A stretch of DNA of 35,366 nucleotides from a virus. The notes beneath the pieces were generated by a model. It was not told the DNA's origin. It made no database searches and was given only the letters and a program-made list of their open reading frames with translations. Within the stretch, counting starts at the first letter, position 1; the number at the start of each line of letters is the position of its first letter. This document shows, in pieces, positions 1 through 31,240 of the stretch. A program made the position numbers and the translations under genes. The stretch is from positions 1 through 35,366 of IMG/VR virus record IMGVR_UViG_3300021406_000027. One strand, 5' to 3'.

Positions 1-44
1 GACTTTTAATCTATGAGTTGCGGGTTCGACCCCCGTGCGCCCCA
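1..44 (+). tRNA. tRNA-Lys(TTT), 5' truncated by window edge
   Basis: Only the 3' part is in the window. The anticodon loop reads C-T-TTT-A-A, giving anticodon TTT (Lys). The T stem at 20-24 pairs with 32-36 around a normal 7-base TTCGACC loop. The acceptor 3' strand is 37-43 and the discriminator is A44. It opens the tRNA cluster that runs to 667. Confidence 0.85.
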
Positions 45-48
45 CTCT

Positions 49-121
49 GGTTCCATGAGGTAAAGGCAAGCCTGCGAGGTTTTCACCCTCGTTGTCCGGG
101 TTCGACTTCCCGGTGGAACTA
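49..121 (+). tRNA. tRNA-Glu(TTC)
   Basis: Acceptor 49-55 pairs with 114-120 (7 bp, one G-T). The anticodon stem CGAGG/CCTCG encloses loop TTTTCAC, anticodon TTC. The T arm (96-100/109-113) leaves an 8-base loop, one longer than normal, so T-arm geometry is slightly odd. No encoded CCA. Confidence 0.85.
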
Positions 122-122
122 C

Positions 123-195
123 GCCTCCTTAGAGTAGCGGTCATCTCGTCGCGTTCTCAGCGCGAAGATCGCCGGTTCGAACCCGGCAGGAGGTA
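123..195 (+). tRNA. tRNA-Glu(CTC)
   Basis: Acceptor GCCTCCT (123-129) pairs with AGGAGGT (188-194). The anticodon loop TTCTCAG is closed by TCGCG/CGCGA and gives anticodon CTC. The T loop TTCGAAC is canonical and the discriminator is A195. With the previous gene it covers both Glu codons. Confidence 0.9.
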
Positions 196-211
196 CGCAA
201 CAACTAAACAG

Positions 212-286
212 TGGCATGTAGCTCAATTAGGCAGCAGCGCCTGGCCGTTAACCAGGAGGTTGAAGGTTCGATTCCTTCCGTGCCAG
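212..286 (+). tRNA. tRNA-Asn(GTT)
   Basis: Acceptor TGGCATG (212-218) pairs with CGTGCCA (279-285). The anticodon stem CCTGG/CCAGG encloses CCGTTAA, anticodon GTT. The T loop is TTCGATT and the discriminator is G286, as expected for Asn. Confidence 0.88.
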
Positions 287-300
287 CGATATCGCTAGTG

Positions 301-350
301 TCCGGTTATAGGTGATTGGAATTCTGGGGTCATTCCCCGGTGAGGTCGGA
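301..350 (+). other. 50-base tRNA-like element without a T arm
   Basis: It lies between tRNA-Asn and tRNA-Gln. The ends can pair (301-307 with 344-350, several G-T pairs), and CTGGG/CCCGG closes a 7-base loop GTCATTC that would present CAT after a U33. No TTCRA T loop exists. It may be a decayed tRNA or simply a spacer hairpin; I cannot decide. Confidence 0.3.
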
Positions 351-355
351 CGCCT

Positions 356-427
356 TGGGATGTGGTGTAACGGCAGCATGACAGGCTCTGAACCTGTCGG
401 TTTTTGGTTCGAATCCAGGCATCCCAG
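356..427 (+). tRNA. tRNA-Gln(CTG)
   Basis: Acceptor TGGGATG (356-362) pairs with CATCCCA (420-426). The anticodon stem ACAGG/CCTGT encloses CTCTGAA, anticodon CTG. The D arm and the T loop TTCGAAT are normal, and the discriminator is G427. Confidence 0.9.
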
Positions 428-440
428 CGGTACAACTTAA

Positions 441-513
441 TGCGGGGTATATCAGCGGCAGATTGTCGGCCTCATAAGCCTGACGGACAAGGGTTCGAGT
501 CCCTTCCTCGCTA
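441..513 (+). tRNA. tRNA with CAT anticodon (elongator Met or Ile2)
   Basis: The anticodon loop CTCATAA (471-477) gives CAT. The acceptor has six good pairs (442-447 with 506-511) but positions 1 and 72 are T and T. The anticodon stem has either one C-T mismatch or a bulged T481. The T arm AAGGG/CCCTT with loop TTCGAGT is sound. Met versus lysidine-modified Ile cannot be settled from sequence; the clear initiator tRNA is at 594-667. Confidence 0.75.
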
Positions 514-517
514 CTAG

Positions 518-593
518 ACAGGTAGTCCGGTTCGACTCCGGCGGCGTGGCCGCGGCGACGCTGAAGTGTAATGGGAGCACGCCTGTCGCCAAA
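518..593 (+). tRNA. Probable circularly permuted tRNA, Trp-like (3' half before 5' half)
   Basis: The 3' half comes first: ACAGG (518-522), a T arm with loop TTCGACT (531-537) and acceptor strand 543-549. Six bases later comes a 5' half: acceptor-like CGACGCT (556-562), a D arm (GTGT/GCAC, 566-580), CCTGT (582-586) and CGCCAAA (587-593). CCTGT is perfectly complementary to the upstream ACAGG, and 556-562 pairs with 543-549 with one G-G mismatch. The D arm and loop resemble tRNA-Trp (CCA), but position 33 would be G. The last base abuts the first base of tRNA-fMet. Two decayed tRNA fragments are the alternative. Confidence 0.5.
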
Positions 594-667
594 CGCGCGG
601 TGGAGGAGTTAGGTTCCTTGCAGGGTTCATACCCCTGAGACGCTCGGTTCGAATCCGGCCCGCGCAA
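594..667 (+). tRNA. Initiator tRNA-fMet(CAT)
   Basis: It carries both bacterial initiator hallmarks: a C1-A72 non-pair (C594, A666) on an otherwise perfect acceptor (595-600 with 660-665), and an anticodon stem CAGGG/CCCTG with three consecutive G-C pairs next to the loop TTCATAC (anticodon CAT). The T loop is TTCGAAT and the discriminator A667. A phage-supplied initiator tRNA could affect translation initiation, which fits the GTG/TTG-rich starts here; that link is inference. Confidence 0.85.
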
Positions 668-679
668 CTAAGCCTAGGA

Positions 680-2950: not shown

Positions 2951-3027
2951 CCGATGTCCAGTGCAAGTTCGAATCTTGCCCTCGGCTCCACATGCCGGGG
3001 TAGCCCAATTGGTAGAGGCAACATCGG
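2951..3027 (+). tRNA. Circularly permuted tRNA 1 (3' half upstream of 5' half)
   Basis: Order on the DNA: anticodon-stem 3' strand CCGATGT (2951-2957), variable loop CCAGT, T arm GCAAG-TTCGAAT-CTTGC (2963-2979), acceptor 3' strand CCTCGGC (2980-2986), TCCA (2987-2990), a 3-base spacer CAT, acceptor 5' strand GCCGGGG (2994-3000), TA, D arm GCC/GGC (3003-3019), A, then anticodon-stem 5' strand ACATCGG (3021-3027). Acceptor halves pair over 7 bp (one G-T) and anticodon strands over 7 bp. All four arms are complete; only the order is permuted, with the break in the anticodon loop. U73 with encoded CCA resembles Gly or Cys tRNAs. The anticodon cannot be read because the loop is split. Confidence 0.75.
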
Positions 3028-3063
3028 CCATCAACGTTAAATTATTGCTCTAGATTCAAACCC

Positions 3064-3101
3064 AGGTAGACGTGTCAAATCGACCGGGTGAAGGTAGACG
3101 T
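3064..3101 (+). repeat. 10-base direct repeat AGGTAGACGT
   Basis: AGGTAGACGT occurs at 3064-3073 and 3092-3101, in the spacer between the two permuted tRNAs. The second copy directly precedes the anticodon-stem strand of permuted tRNA 2 and contributes to the flanking helix with 3186-3194. It could mark a duplication boundary or a processing signal. Confidence 0.5.
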
Positions 3102-3176
3102 AGCAGAGATGGTGGTTCAATCCCGCCCGCCCCCTCCAAAATTCATGGGGGCGTGGCCCAATGGCAAGGCGCTGCG
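3102..3176 (+). tRNA. Circularly permuted tRNA 2 (3' half upstream of 5' half), Cys/Gly-like
   Basis: Order: anticodon-stem 3' strand GCAG (3103-3106), variable AGAT, T arm GGTGG-TTCAATC-CCGCC (3111-3127), acceptor 3' strand CGCCCCC (3128-3134), TCCA (3135-3138), spacer AAATTCAT, acceptor 5' strand GGGGGCG (3147-3153), TG, D arm GCC/GGC (3156-3170), G, then CTGC (3172-3175). Acceptor strands form a perfect 7-bp stem; CTGC/GCAG close the anticodon stem, followed by one G-A mismatch. Outside it, GAAGGTAG (3090-3097) pairs with 3186-3194 over 8 bp with one bulged A, so the flanks are held together. U73, CCA and the short D arm resemble tRNA-Cys or Gly; the anticodon is unresolved. Confidence 0.7.
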
Positions 3177-3256
3177 ACACTTAAACTAACCTTCGTCCTT
3201 AAATGTGTTGACACGGAAATGAATACCACCAAATGACCCGAAAAATCATTTGATTT

Positions 3257-3289
3257 GATGCCGGGCCGCCGGAGATGCGGCCCGGCATC
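3257..3289 (+). terminator. Perfect 13-bp GC-rich hairpin
   Basis: 3257-3269 pairs perfectly with 3277-3289 around the 7-base loop CGGAGAT. It separates the permuted tRNA block from the suppressor tRNA five bases further on. There is no U tract, but actinobacterial terminators often lack one; it could also be a processing barrier. TTGACA at 3209-3214 resembles a -35 box, without a convincing -10. Confidence 0.55.
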
Positions 3290-3294
3290 CCTAA

Positions 3295-3362
3295 GGCGCA
3301 CGTTCCGGTGACTAGCGAAGCTCTAACCTTCGCGACCGCGGGTTCGACTCCCGCATGCGCCG
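3295..3362 (+). tRNA. Amber suppressor tRNA (anticodon CTA), tRNA-Pyl-like shape
   Basis: Acceptor GGCGCA (3295-3300) pairs with TGCGCC (3356-3361), discriminator G3362. The anticodon stem is 6 bp (GCGAAG/CTTCGC) around CTCTAAC: U33 then CUA, which reads UAG. The D arm is minimal (GTT/GAC with a 5-base loop CCGGT) and one base separates acceptor from D stem. The T arm GCGGG-TTCGACT-CCCGC is canonical. A 6-bp anticodon stem, 5-base D loop, single linker base, CUA and G73 are known tRNA-Pyl traits; the normal T loop and 4-base variable region are less typical. No PylRS-like gene is in the window. A degenerate ordinary tRNA is the alternative. Confidence 0.7.
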
Positions 3363-3363
3363 C

Positions 3364-3651
3364 GTGAAAGCCAGGTTCCAAACCATCCCGCCGGAATGTC
3401 AGCACTGCGGCATCATCGACAGTCCAGACTTTGGTGCCCCGGTGGATTGCTACGAAGACAACGAACCCGACCCGCGCTGGTTCATGTGGTTATGCGCTAA
3501 TTGCCGAACCGACCAGTGGCATGCCAGCAACGGCACGGTCTCGTTGCGGGAGTTCCTTGGGCAAACCGAACTGGAACATAAATACTGGGTCGAAGGCAAG
3601 TGGGAGCCGTTCGCTGACGCTTACTACGAACGTGTCTGCGGAAACGACTGA
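3364..3651 (+). CDS. Small zinc-binding-type protein (two CxxC)
   Basis: About 95 residues with CQHC near the start and CANC further on, a four-cysteine zinc knuckle typical of small phage proteins. The C-terminus is acidic and aromatic (KYWVEGKWEPFADAYYERV). GTG3364 is preferred: an in-frame ATG3355 lies inside the tRNA acceptor. If RNase Z cuts after G3362, the mRNA would begin one base before GTG3364. No ribosome site is visible. DNA or RNA binding is possible but unproven. Confidence 0.6.
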   Translation: MKARFQTIPPECQHCGIIDSPDFGAPVDCYEDNEPDPRWFMWLCANCRTDQWHASNGTVSLREFLGQTELEHKYWVEGKWEPFADAYYERVCGND

Positions 3652-19442: not shown

Positions 19443-19921
19443 TGTTCGACGCTCTACACCGCGCCTACAAAGCATTCACATCAGGTGTCGTTCCAGCACA
19501 CGACGTGACCGAGTCGCATCGATACACCGTCCATTACCCGGACCACCAGCCGAGACAGTCGGATCCACACTATAAGGATTTCGAGGCGTACCGGCGACGC
19601 ACTAAGGCGACCGCAAAATGCTCAGTCGGTGAAGCGCGAGGGGACTTCACCGACTGCCAACCCGGCCCCAACTCCTGGCCCACCGGCCTCGAACTACACC
19701 ATGACCACGTCGAATTCGCCCTAGAAAATGCTGTAGACCTGGCGTTATTAGACAAGGTTTACCCCGGTGTGTCGAACCCTGACGAGGTCGGAGCGTGGGT
19801 AGAGTCCGCTGACAACCTCGTATGGCTCTGCACGTTCCATCACCGCGGCCACGGCGGCGTACATGTAGCAAGCAGCTCTGATTACGAGGCGGAACGCTTC
19901 ATTAAGGGGCTGATCAGCTGA
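19442..19921 (+). CDS. HNH-type nuclease-like protein, 159 aa
   Basis: ATG19442 overlaps the preceding stop (TAATG). CSVGEARGDFTDCQPGPNSW carries possible zinc ligands; LELHHDHVEFALENAVDL, then NLVWLCTFHHRGHGGVH matches the HNH arrangement (paired His, an Asn and a following His). Sits between two lysis-type genes, like a free-standing HNH insertion. Confidence 0.7.
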   Translation: MFDALHRAYKAFTSGVVPAHDVTESHRYTVHYPDHQPRQSDPHYKDFEAYRRRTKATAKCSVGEARGDFTDCQPGPNSWPTGLELHHDHVEFALENAVDLALLDKVYPGVSNPDEVGAWVESADNLVWLCTFHHRGHGGVHVASSSDYEAERFIKGLIS

Positions 19922-21297
19922 TGGTTTTGCGTTCAAGCATGGAGTTCGCCAAGCGGGTGTTTATCGACCGGTTGACCACTGACCAGTACGGCAGTCTCGT
20001 GCAGCCGGACATCGGGAACTTTGATGAAGGCCCGGGCGACGAGTACGACTACGGCGGGTGCTACGACCCAGACAACTTGGGTATCGGGGCGGACTGTTCT
20101 GGTTCGGCGGGCATCTTCCTGGGTGCCGCGCTTCTCGGGCCGGCTGGGATGTCGTGGGATCGGCAGTTCACCACGGAAACGTTCTGCAACTGGCCGCCGG
20201 GGAACTGGCGGCAGACAACGCAAGAGGACCTGGTCAATAACTACTATCCGGCAAAAGTTTGCATTATGCACGGTGGTGGTGGACCGGATTCTCACATGAA
20301 CTGCAGCGTCGATGGAATTGTGATGGAATCCAACGGCGATTACGGAACTTGCACTTTGGGGCATGGGGCGATCGCCCAGGACGATGATTATTGGAATGAC
20401 TGGTGGGTTCTTGATGAGCCGGTCGTTGAGGACACCACGTATCGGACTCCTATGGTTTATCCGCAGGGTTTTGATTATGCGGTGGGTCCTATTTCTGGAG
20501 CTGATCTGAAAGCTGCCGGGAAGTCTTTTGTGTGTCGGTATGTGACGCCGTCGTTGCAGTGGAAATGTTTGCAGCCGGGCGAGTTCCAGGATTTGGTTAG
20601 CAATGGGATTGTTGTGGTCTTCAACTATGAGGGCGAAGGCAACGGGATGTTGAACGGGAACGCGCAGGGCATTCAGGATGCGCAGGAGGCGTTGAATTAT
20701 ATCCGCAGCTTGCCTGGTGTGCCGGCGGGATATAATCCGGTCGTTTATTTTAGTTGCGATTTCGATGAGTCACCTGATCAGGATGGCGCGCTGCAGGACT
20801 ACCTGGCGGGGTGCGCGCAGGTGTTGGGTGGTGTTCAGTATGTGGGGATTTACGGTGGGTATTGGCCGCTTTCACGCATGTTGGATGCCGGGGCGTGCAC
20901 CTACGCGTGGCAGACGGAAGCGTGGAGCGGCGGCAATCTTGATGCCCGCGTAAACATAGTCCAGCGCAACGGCGTGGGCTTCCAGAATTTCGACGGTGTT
21001 CAGTGTGATGCTGATGAAGCACACACCGATAATTTCGGGCAGTACTTAGGAGGAGATATGCCGGAGAGTACAGCGGACCTGATCTTGGACCAGCTGGCCG
21101 GCCCGCTTAACACGGACGGTACTCGTGGTTGGGCGCAGCTGGGGAACCGGTCGATCGTGGACTTCCTGGCCCAGGTTGTGGGGCCTGCGTTGACGCAGAT
21201 ACAGGCCACCGTCACCGCGGGGAATTCGAAAGCCGCCAAGGTTGATGTGCCGGACACCGAACACGATCAGTCGAAGATCCCGCCGAAGAAAAAGTAG
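19921..21297 (+). CDS. lysA: Endolysin LysA: peptidase plus DUF1906 glycoside-hydrolase-like domain
   Basis: 458 residues. An N-terminal NlpC/P60-like peptidase domain has Cys about 59 in GADCSGSAGIF and His about 125 in GPDSHMNCSVDG, a common mycobacteriophage LysA N-domain. The second domain (about 186-380) is DUF1906-like: YPQGFDYAVGPIS, SFVCRYVTPS, NGIVVVFNYEGEGNG, YNPVVYFSCDFDES, GVQYVGIYGGY and AWQTEAW, a TIM-barrel related to glycoside hydrolase 25. A helical C-terminus ends in a Lys-rich tail and TAG. No signal peptide, so holin-dependent. Cuts host peptidoglycan at lysis. Confidence 0.85.
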   Translation: MVLRSSMEFAKRVFIDRLTTDQYGSLVQPDIGNFDEGPGDEYDYGGCYDPDNLGIGADCSGSAGIFLGAALLGPAGMSWDRQFTTETFCNWPPGNWRQTTQEDLVNNYYPAKVCIMHGGGGPDSHMNCSVDGIVMESNGDYGTCTLGHGAIAQDDDYWNDWWVLDEPVVEDTTYRTPMVYPQGFDYAVGPISGADLKAAGKSFVCRYVTPSLQWKCLQPGEFQDLVSNGIVVVFNYEGEGNGMLNGNAQGIQDAQEALNYIRSLPGVPAGYNPVVYFSCDFDESPDQDGALQDYLAGCAQVLGGVQYVGIYGGYWPLSRMLDAGACTYAWQTEAWSGGNLDARVNIVQRNGVGFQNFDGVQCDADEAHTDNFGQYLGGDMPESTADLILDQLAGPLNTDGTRGWAQLGNRSIVDFLAQVVGPALTQIQATVTAGNSKAAKVDVPDTEHDQSKIPPKKK

Positions 21298-26601: not shown

Positions 26602-26657
26602 ATCCGGGACGGCAATTCATTGTTGGGTGACATACACGCCATGGCCGCCCCGGATAA
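26602..26657 (+). repeat. Repeat family copy G
   Basis: TATCCGGG-A-CGG pairs with CCG-C-CCCGGATA (11 bp, one mismatch), inner TGGGTGACATA, 7 bases, TGGCC. Fills the gap between the 26600 stop and the PPE gene. Confidence 0.8.
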
Positions 26658-26716
26658 TGGTAATTCTACCGGAGTGGCAACCAGATAAACAGCGGTCAGC
26701 GGCCCACAATTGGGCC

Positions 26717-27847
26717 GTGGACCTAGCGTTACCTCCTGAAATATCTTCCGTCCAGATCTACACCGGGCCTGGTGCGTCGCCGCTTGTCGCTGCTGCGACA
26801 GCGTGGGCCGACACCGCCGCCGAGTTGGAGCAGTTCTCCACCAGCCAGACAGCTATCACCGGTGCCATTCCGTGGTTCGGGCCGTCCGCGCAGGCCATGT
26901 CGGTGGCCAGCGCCGGAATCTCCAACTGGGCCATGGATTCAGCTATTCAGGCCGCTTCGATGGGTGTCGGAGCGACGATGGCCGCGGCTGCTTTCGAAAC
27001 TGTGTACGCCACGATCACACCACCGTTTGAGGTGTTCGAGAACCGGACCAGGTTAGCGATGCTGATCGCCACCAACATTTTGGGGCAGAACTTCCCGGCG
27101 ATCGCCGCCACCGAGGCCCAGTACGGGGAGATGTGGGCGCAGAACATCGCGTCGATGTCCGCGTACCAGGTGTCATCCGTCGCGGCCACGAACCCGTTGA
27201 ACGGGTTCGCCGTGTTGCAGGAGTTCATGTCCGGCCTGTCCGACATCTTCGCGCCAGGATCCAACACAGCCACAACCGGTTTGCCTGGCCTTTTGAACCT
27301 GATCAGCGGCGCATCCGGGTCAGCGTTCGGGACGTTCCTGAACAACAACTTCATCTCAACGTCGGTGCTGAACTCGCTCGGATCGTCCGGCTTCTACATG
27401 CCGTCGCAGTGGCTGTACCCGCTGATCGCCCTGTTCGAAGGCGCTCAGACTTCCAGCTCAGGTTCCAGCTCGGGCAGCTCTTCGGGTGGTGCCGTCTTAC
27501 CGCCCGGGGTTTCACCGTATCCGGGATGGAATCAGGACCCCTACGTTGCCCCAACCCCGGGACCGGTGACGGGACGCCTGGGATGCGGCGCACGTATCGG
27601 CGGCCTCACCACCCCGCCCACCTGGGCGGCCCCACAAGCCCCGGGCGCACCAACGGCGCTGCGCCCGGCCACAAATACACCATCCGACGCCGCCCCCGCG
27701 GCGGAGGACTCGACACCACTACTGGGCCTGGGTGGACTCGCCGGCCTAGCCGGATTACGTGGCGGCACACCACCCAAAACGCAAAAACCGCCGCCGGAAT
27801 ACGGCATCAAATCAACAGTGATGCCTAAGCATCCACTCGGAGGATAA
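26717..27847 (+). CDS. PPE-family protein, PPE-SVP type
   Basis: 376 residues from GTG26717. The N-terminus VDLALPPEISSVQIYTGPGA aligns with classic PPE starts (Pro-Pro-Glu at 6-8), then AATAWADTAAELEQF, PWFGPSAQAM, FETVYATITPPFEVFENRTR and TEAQYGEMWAQNIASMSAYQ, all hallmarks of the 180-residue PPE domain. A Ser/Gly linker precedes GGLTTPPTWA (SVP-like motif) and a C-terminus IKSTVMPKHPLGG typical of the subfamily. PPE proteins usually pair with a PE protein and leave through ESX type VII secretion; no PE gene is adjacent. The frame is open upstream to ATG26657 and GTG26627; GTG26717 was chosen by homology, without a clear ribosome site. Confidence 0.9.
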   Translation: MDLALPPEISSVQIYTGPGASPLVAAATAWADTAAELEQFSTSQTAITGAIPWFGPSAQAMSVASAGISNWAMDSAIQAASMGVGATMAAAAFETVYATITPPFEVFENRTRLAMLIATNILGQNFPAIAATEAQYGEMWAQNIASMSAYQVSSVAATNPLNGFAVLQEFMSGLSDIFAPGSNTATTGLPGLLNLISGASGSAFGTFLNNNFISTSVLNSLGSSGFYMPSQWLYPLIALFEGAQTSSSGSSSGSSSGGAVLPPGVSPYPGWNQDPYVAPTPGPVTGRLGCGARIGGLTTPPTWAAPQAPGAPTALRPATNTPSDAAPAAEDSTPLLGLGGLAGLAGLRGGTPPKTQKPPPEYGIKSTVMPKHPLGG

Positions 27848-29976: not shown

Positions 29977-30230
29977 AACCCCATCCCTTTCGGGTTGATC
30001 GGATGGACCATGGTGTCGTCGGTGAGAGCGCCGGTGGAGTCTAGCGTCACCGCCAATATCGCCGCCGCATGCAGCGCCTCAGCACCGACAACGCCGTCAT
30101 TCAACGGCACCGACAGCACCGCCCACCTGCCGTCTGCGCGTTCATCGAGCGCGAACTCCCAGCTGGCTCCGTCATACCGTAGAGCACGCGCCGCGCGTTC
30201 CACGAATTCGTCGTCTACAGGTAGAACCAT
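29973..30230 (-). CDS. Hypothetical protein, 85 aa
   Basis: ATG30230 overlaps the stop of the IS110-like gene. FVERAARALRYDGASWEFAL, then ADGRWAVLSVPLNDGVVGAE; looks like a helix followed by a small sheet. Unknown. Confidence 0.55.
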   Translation of the reverse strand: MVLPVDDEFVERAARALRYDGASWEFALDERADGRWAVLSVPLNDGVVGAEALHAAAILAVTLDSTGALTDDTMVHPINPKGMGL

Positions 30231-31240
30231 CAGTTCTCCTTGGTCCGGGCGGTGCGGGTGGCCGCGATCCGTTTCGACACCTTCTTCGCTACGGATTCGG
30301 TAGCTGCATCATGCTCGCCGGCGGCGGCTTCTTTGTGGAGACGCTCCGCCTCTTTCCACAGATCTTTGAGGAACGTTTTAGCGACGATCCGCAGGGCGCG
30401 CCGGTTCTTGTGGCCGTCCCGCAGGTCCGACCCGACCGGGGCAGGTTTACCTGGTGTGCCGCACGGCGGGCACGGATGGGTGTGCACAGCGTCCTCGTAT
30501 TTAGCGCGGGCCTGGTCGTACACCACCCGGTACGGTGAGCCTTTACGGTTCCGTTCGGGCTGCGCGACCGCGATCATGCACCGCTCAGCGATAAGGTAGA
30601 CCCGCATTTTGGCTTCGTCGTTCCAGTTGGCCAGCTCACCGCGGGTGCGTCGCCGCCCGGCACCGTCAACGGGTGCGAGGCCGCAGTACGAATACAGTTC
30701 GTACAGGCCGCGGGGCCGGTCGTCGCCGTCGTGCCAGTAAGGGTCGCCGAGCGCGCCGAGTAGGCGGGCGAACTGCTTGGCCCCGACACCGGTGATCGGC
30801 TGCGCCCACGTCCACAACGGGTGGCTTCTCATGACCCGTTCGAGGTTCTTTATCGCCATGTCCAGGGAGTCGTCCAGCGCTTCCACTAGGGCTTCCAGCC
30901 TGCGCACGTCGGGGTGGTCGGTCGGCAGCCCGAACCCGCGGTGTTTCCCGTCGCTGTCCGCTTCGGCCCTGGTCAGCTGTCGCAACCTGTTTTGGTTTGC
31001 GTTGCGGACGTTCTCCAGGTCGTCCACAACATCGGCGGACAGCCGCAGGAACGGCGACCGCAGGAAAGAGCCGGGGACAGCGGCAACGGTCTGGGTATCA
31101 CGCACGTTCTGGCCGTCCCTGGGGCTTGTGGGTGCAGGCAGTATCTTCAGGCTTGGCCGCCCCGGCAAGTTGACCTTGGTTGACGTTCGTTGCTTGGCTG
31201 GGGCGACGATCTTGGCGGGTTTCTTGGCAGGGTTGGTCAT
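30230..31240 (-). CDS. IS110-type transposase C-terminal domain protein
   Basis: 336 residues. A basic, Pro-rich N-terminus and a helical region (LEALVEALDDSLDMAIKNLE) lead to the Transposase_20 (IS110/IS116/IS902) pattern: TWAQPITGVGAKQFARLLGA (helix-hairpin-helix), LYSYCGLAPVDGAGRRRTRG, NWNDEAKMRVYLIAERCMIA and GHKNRRALRIVAKTFLKDLW. The N-terminal DEDD/RuvC-like domain of true IS110 transposases is not evident, and no element ends are seen. It is phased into the operon on both sides, so it looks domesticated rather than mobile. Repeat copy I lies in its 5' coding part. Confidence 0.75.
   Translation of the reverse strand: MTNPAKKPAKIVAPAKQRTSTKVNLPGRPSLKILPAPTSPRDGQNVRDTQTVAAVPGSFLRSPFLRLSADVVDDLENVRNANQNRLRQLTRAEADSDGKHRGFGLPTDHPDVRRLEALVEALDDSLDMAIKNLERVMRSHPLWTWAQPITGVGAKQFARLLGALGDPYWHDGDDRPRGLYELYSYCGLAPVDGAGRRRTRGELANWNDEAKMRVYLIAERCMIAVAQPERNRKGSPYRVVYDQARAKYEDAVHTHPCPPCGTPGKPAPVGSDLRDGHKNRRALRIVAKTFLKDLWKEAERLHKEAAAGEHDAATESVAKKVSKRIAATRTARTKEN
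31071..31122 (+). repeat. Repeat family copy I (inside a coding region)
   Basis: CCGGGGAC-A-G pairs with CCGTCCCTGG (9 of 10), inner TGGGTATCACG, 7 bases, TGGCC. It lies in the first 60 codons of the minus-strand IS110-like gene but keeps the plus orientation. An alternative arm pairs 31119-31125 with 31159-31165. Confidence 0.7.

Follow-up and report, generated by a model that had tools for sequence, protein, structure and literature searches.

The question what a phage gains from a tRNA for a stop codon, when its genes are written in the standard code, is raised here by a tRNA gene with the amber anticodon CUA in an uncultivated virus. The DNA analysed (hereafter the window) is the whole stretch of record IMGVR_UViG_3300021406_000027, 35,366 bases; the contig is a fragment and the phage genome is incomplete. 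A preliminary description, made from the letters of the sequence, had called the gene an amber-suppressor tRNA with a tRNA-Pyl-like architecture. We provide evidence that it is probably a further member of the already known phage amber-decoding tRNAs, with an unusual core. Coordinates of the features discussed are collected in Table 1.

Table 1. Features discussed in the text (positions in the window unless a phage is named)
Feature	Position	Strand	Basis
tRNA-Lys-like 3' half, cut off, ahead of the main tRNA cluster	1-41		
Main tRNA cluster of the contig (Glu, Glu, Asn, Gln, Met, Met)	49..668	+	ARAGORN
Degenerate tRNA fragments, both 5' halves and pieces of T arm and 3' acceptor, ahead of the intact CUA tRNA	2963..3195	+	sequence
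12-bp perfect GC-rich hairpin, ATGCCGGGCCGC-cggagat-GCGGCCCGGCAT, directly 5' of the CUA tRNA	3258..3288	+	sequence
tRNA, anticodon CUA, short D arm, 6-bp anticodon stem, canonical T arm, G73	3295..3362	+	
Weak phrog_12828 match	3355..3651	+	
Lysin A gene, stop TAG	19921..21297	+	
PPE-family protein	26627-27847	+	
Protein matching phrog_4285	30230-31240	-	
Swapped CUA tRNA gene, Asterius	L009:5971-6044		
Swapped CUA tRNA gene, Khaleesi	L026:321-391		
Asterius gene 212, protein with RF-1 domain	L165:16174-16584		
Myrna 'tRNA Sup TTA'	94710-94781 (L166:49211-49282)		

Source and genome context

Megablast with the first 25 kb of the window matches no phage record. Searching IMG/VR with the protein downstream of the tRNA yielded no close relatives of the window, and a search with its ATP-grasp protein yielded four contig pieces, none of them with a tRNA; phage relatives of the ATP-grasp protein are present only in Myrna, Phabba and ScoobyDoobyDoo. 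The lysin A carries an Rv2525c-like domain and its tblastn relatives are almost all from mycobacteriophages. A lysin-B-like protein is encoded as well, and together the two predicted lysins indicate a mycobacterial host.

Two further proteins are worth recording. Amid the phage genes lies a PPE-family protein (PF00823, E=3e-42, plus a PPE-SVP C-terminal match), which has no tblastn relative in 50,697 phage records and matches at least 80 Mycobacterium genome loci at an identity of up to about 50%. The second matches phrog_4285 (transposase, E=1.6e-83) and no Pfam family.

Anatomy of the CUA tRNA

The gene is called by ARAGORN as tRNA-Pyl(cta) at 3295-3363 (+), and a direct reading gives GGCGCA-C-GTT(CCGGT)GAC-TA-GCGAAG(CTCTAAC)CTTCGC-GACC-GCGGG(TTCGACT)CCCGC-A-TGCGCC-G73. 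The anticodon (bases 34-36, at 3323-3325) is flanked by U33 and A37 and stands on a perfect stem of 6 bp (GCGAAG/CTTCGC). The D arm consists of a 3-bp stem (one G-U) and a 5-base loop, CCGGT, that contains GG; it is separated from the acceptor by a single linker base and from the anticodon stem by two bases (TA). The variable region is GACC (4 nt) and the T loop, TTCGACT, is canonical. The acceptor can be drawn either as 6 bp with an unpaired A66 or as 7 bp with a C.A mismatch, G1:C72, G51:C63 and G73 are present, and CCA is not encoded. The anatomy given in the preliminary description (CUA in a 7-base loop, 6-bp anticodon stem, 3-bp D stem with 5-base loop, one linker base, G73, an ordinary T loop and a variable region of 4 bases) is confirmed by this reading.

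The core is abnormal: U8 is absent, the D stem is weak and the acceptor has 6 bp. On folding, pairing probabilities are 0.73-1.0 for the acceptor, anticodon and T stems and 0.12-0.15 for the thermodynamically weak D stem. Covariance scoring, which had been suggested as a check, turned out negative, as the tRNA falls below the gathering score of the general tRNA model (Rfam RF00005), a miss that we attribute to the abnormal core. The best match at this position in the Rfam scan is tRNA-Sec (25.8 bits, below the cut-off of 47). Chance is no explanation for the gene: in 300 Markov-resampled windows with the dinucleotide frequencies of the original (10.6 Mb), ARAGORN returned three hits, one of them CUA, which amounts to about 0.01 per window.

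Relatives in cluster C1 mycobacteriophages

A blastn search with the tRNA retrieved 95 Mycobacterium phage records, in which the matching features are labelled tRNA-Pyl, tRNA-OTHER or tRNA-Arg. Further labels used in C1 phages are tRNA-Sup (cta) in LinStu, tRNA-suppressor (cta) in Sebata and tRNA-Stop(cta) in InterFolia and Tonenili. The Arg(UCU) register annotated in some records was rejected, since the CUA register forms a better stem. CUA was read in all 12 C1 records fetched (I3 among them), and 190/190 C1 records match across the CUA tRNA slot. On its face this conflicts with a passage in PMC10264068 which states that C1 phages avoid a tRNA for the stop codon (cta).

The relationship was quantified in a set of 108 tRNAs taken from the window, C1 phages, Myrna, one Mycobacterium genome and others. 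The best non-self match of the window tRNA is a C1 CUA tRNA, here named allele A (Bixzunavirus; for example Asterius gene 161 and LinStu gene 156), with 56-58 of 77 columns identical depending on the query direction. Both have CUA, one linker base, an identical T arm, a 5-base D loop with CGG and TA ahead of the anticodon stem, and both fail the general tRNA model. Allele A differs in its 7-bp acceptor and 4-bp D stem (6 and 3 bp in the window), in a 5-bp anticodon stem with a C31.C39 mismatch (a perfect 6 bp in the window), and in a 5-nt variable region and A73 (4 nt and G73 in the window). The two tRNAs have different bases on both strands of the acceptor and anticodon stems, yet pairing is preserved in these stems.

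A second allele (B) occupies the same slot in other C1 genomes, for example in Sebata and in I3, where it is labelled tRNA-Pyl(cta). It has CUA like the window tRNA, but is a canonical tRNA (59.7 bits) whose sequence is not closely related. The CUA tRNAs of Asterius (allele A) and Khaleesi (allele B) are only 62% identical, against 97.4% identity for the 150-base flanks on either side. Judged by these alignments, a C1 slot that held one CUA tRNA gene came to hold another, unrelated one. Since the two dissimilar alleles lie between near-identical flanks, the anticodon survived the exchange, and we consider this the best evidence for a presumed selection of the amber anticodon. The idea that CUA might be a lone mutation can also be dismissed, since it is found in the C1 homologue as well as in several unrelated phage lineages.

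Upstream sequence and possible decay

The hairpin that precedes the gene has no U-run, and a scan shows no terminator-like site; our guess is that it could serve as a processing or pause site. The region of degenerate fragments further upstream gives weak matches to YrlA and weak, sub-threshold ones to permuted tmRNA. Within it, at 3111-3180 (+), tRNA halves stand in permuted order: a 3' half (T arm, CGCCCCC-TCCA at 3128-3138) is followed by a 5' half that starts from GGGGGCG (3147-3153). These are probably remnants of tandem tRNAs.

With such pieces directly upstream it might be argued that the CUA tRNA is decaying too, as one of several non-functional remnants in which CUA is a relic. The abnormal D arm and acceptor, the score under the RF00005 cut-off and the isolated position of the gene, 2.6 kb away from the main cluster, would fit. 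We nonetheless regard decay as unlikely: pairing is preserved in the acceptor, anticodon and T stems and is perfect in the anticodon stem; the odd core recurs in the C1 homologue, which about 91 records retain; and the stems of the two have changed on both strands.

Comparison with tRNA-Pyl

The likeness to the tRNA-Pyl of Methanosarcina and Desulfitobacterium comprises CUA, the 6-bp anticodon stem, the small (here 5-base) D loop, the single linker base and G73. Of the features described for tRNA-Pyl in PMC7609411, G1:C72, G51:C63, U33 and A37 are present as well. All this would suit a true tRNA-Pyl, charged by a PylRS encoded elsewhere in the phage or in the host. Other features differ: tRNA-Pyl has a 3-nt variable arm, and a fourth nucleotide impairs the tRNA-Pyl of M. 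barkeri, which moreover has a small D loop without G18G19 and a T loop without U54-Psi55-C56 (PMC7609411). In the window tRNA the variable region measures 4 nt, the D loop contains GG and the T loop is canonical.

The partner enzyme that tRNA-Pyl needs was searched for, as the preliminary description had advised, with a negative outcome: PylRS (PylS) is absent from the 35,366 bases of the window, and the PylS profile finds none of 198 genomes of Mycobacterium, the inferred host genus, above the curated cut-off (weak matches stay under 30 bits). One of 14 control genomes exceeded the cut-off, presumably that of Methanosarcina acetivorans. The closest homologue, allele A, has neither the 6-bp stem nor G73. 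The two tRNAs thus do not have the Pyl-like traits in common, and within this pair such traits would not reflect shared ancestry. A true tRNA-Pyl is therefore very improbable. What stands of the Pyl-like architecture is the CUA anticodon, the 6-bp stem, the linker, the D loop size and G73; with canonical loops, a 4-nt variable region, no PylRS in the window or the 198 genomes and a homologue without the 6-bp stem and G73, the resemblance is superficial.

Usage of TAG in the window and in C1 phages

TAG is the stop of 6 of the 49 best-guess genes in the window and of 38 of the 223 genes in phage Asterius. The TAG triplets listed in the preliminary description (5617, 8679, 21297, 26600 and 28060) are all real, and its view that there is no full code change is borne out. 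Code-15 gut phages carry CUA tRNAs and have TAG reassigned; the window phage has not. The presence of a CUA tRNA, as in those phages, is what could speak for a recoded genetic code with TAG as sense. This we hold to be extremely unlikely: TAG terminates genes in both genomes as given above, and reading it as sense lengthens open reading frames much as reading TAA does (open stretches of 150 codons or more: 86 for TAG against 74 for TAA, with 54 under the standard code and 128 for TGA).

Read-through at the window TAGs examined would lengthen the products by 0 to 16 codons, with 8679 as the sole exception, and in lysin A only 10 residues would be added before a second TAG. In Asterius, the next gene (non-overlapping neighbours) is in frame for 7/30 TAG stops, against 19/67 for TGA and 7/25 for TAA, so that there is no enrichment, and among eight TAG read-through products no Pfam domain spans the TAG. 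Taken together, there is no sign in these sequences of selected read-through fusions.

Phage I3 is a C1 phage with a CUA tRNA. According to the title of Ramakrishnan and Shaila (1979), as listed in PMC9262239, amber mutants of I3 were isolated via a transferred host amber suppressor gene. As far as that title goes, mutants that need a host suppressor argue against strong suppression by the phage's own CUA tRNA, since an I3 that suppressed amber codons efficiently would hardly yield amber mutants.

No release factor gene is present in the window. In the C1 phages, a protein with an RF-1 domain is encoded (Asterius gene 212: 136 aa, PF00472, E=2e-16), which is probably ArfB-like. A tmRNA is encoded by these phages too, and a peptidyl-tRNA hydrolase gene lies next to the CUA tRNA; the three may perhaps form a ribosome-rescue set.

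A role in counter-defence has to be weighed too, in which the tRNA resists or occupies host tRNA nucleases (VapC, RelE) rather than decoding UAG. A passage in PMC10264068 proposes that C1 phage tRNAs evade anticodon nucleases, and C1 phages have RNA-repair-like genes (RlaP, 2'-5' RNA ligase and PNKP-phosphatase domains). Nonetheless, a stop codon has no host tRNA that nucleases could deplete and a phage copy could replace, and CUA was retained through the allele exchange, which makes this role quite improbable.

Other phage CUA tRNAs and stop-codon tRNAs

Among the matches listed, at least 64 other phage CUA tRNAs occur in 120 IMG/VR loci. In these loci and in DSS3_MAL1 the anticodon loop is (C/T)TCTAA(A/C) as in the window; their cores are mostly canonical. 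A search for the CUA tRNA pattern with the CTCTAA loop had no match in 198 Mycobacterium genomes and so revealed no chromosomal source.

In the same loci, and again among the matches listed, a mismatch at 31-39 (mostly C.A) is seen in 24/71 CUA tRNAs against 37/665 other tRNAs; after clustering at 85% the ratio is 17/60 against 35/616. The sample (IMG/VR loci and C1 phages) derives mainly from one sequence pattern, and the apparent excess of this mismatch in phage CUA tRNAs is a lead only. In the records read, base 39 of C1 allele B is A, C or T; a G, which could pair with C31, does not occur there. In the window tRNA 31-39 is a G-C pair.

Annotations of Myrna within 45.5-144.7 kb contain no recognisable CUA tRNA. 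That phage has an annotated ochre suppressor, 'tRNA Sup TTA' (Table 1), and C-cluster phages thus have two kinds of stop-codon tRNA.

A model for UAG decoding

The reading that we consider probable is that of a UAG-decoding elongator tRNA of the C1 kind, charged by the host and giving weak or conditional read-through. The cloverleaf with CUA is intact, homology to C1 allele A comes with changed yet paired stems, CUA was kept through exchange in C1, no PylRS was found in the window or the 198 Mycobacterium genomes, and TAG is an ordinary stop. In such a model the gene would be transcribed during infection, a host enzyme would add CCA, and a host synthetase would charge the tRNA with a standard amino acid. 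The charged tRNA would then compete weakly, or late, for UAG with RF1, the release factor of the host, presumably with low efficiency, and the outcome would be partial or conditional read-through of amber stops of the phage, and perhaps of the host, from which the phage may benefit. Points against this reading are the abnormal core, the RF00005 miss (shared with C1 allele A), the lack of TAG fusion enrichment and the I3 amber mutants.

As a first guess from sequence, the amino acid carried could be Gln or Glu. The isotypes with G73 in one Mycobacterium genome are Asn, Asp, Gln, Ser and Trp, and among these we favour Gln because its anticodon, CUG, comes closest to CUA. With A73 in the C1 homologues, the amino acid may differ there.

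A bolder proposal, which we find conceivable though on the unlikely side, is that of a compact, non-canonical lineage of amber tRNAs, represented in a distant mycobacteriophage and in about half of all C1 phages, missed by the general model and selected for UAG decoding without recoding; chosen UAG stops would be read through only during infection.

The swap of one CUA tRNA for another in the C1 slot, together with an odd core that is common to a distant phage, suggests that it is UAG decoding itself that has been kept. C1 phages grow on M. smegmatis, and the question what benefit a CUA tRNA brings to a phage is therefore directly testable.
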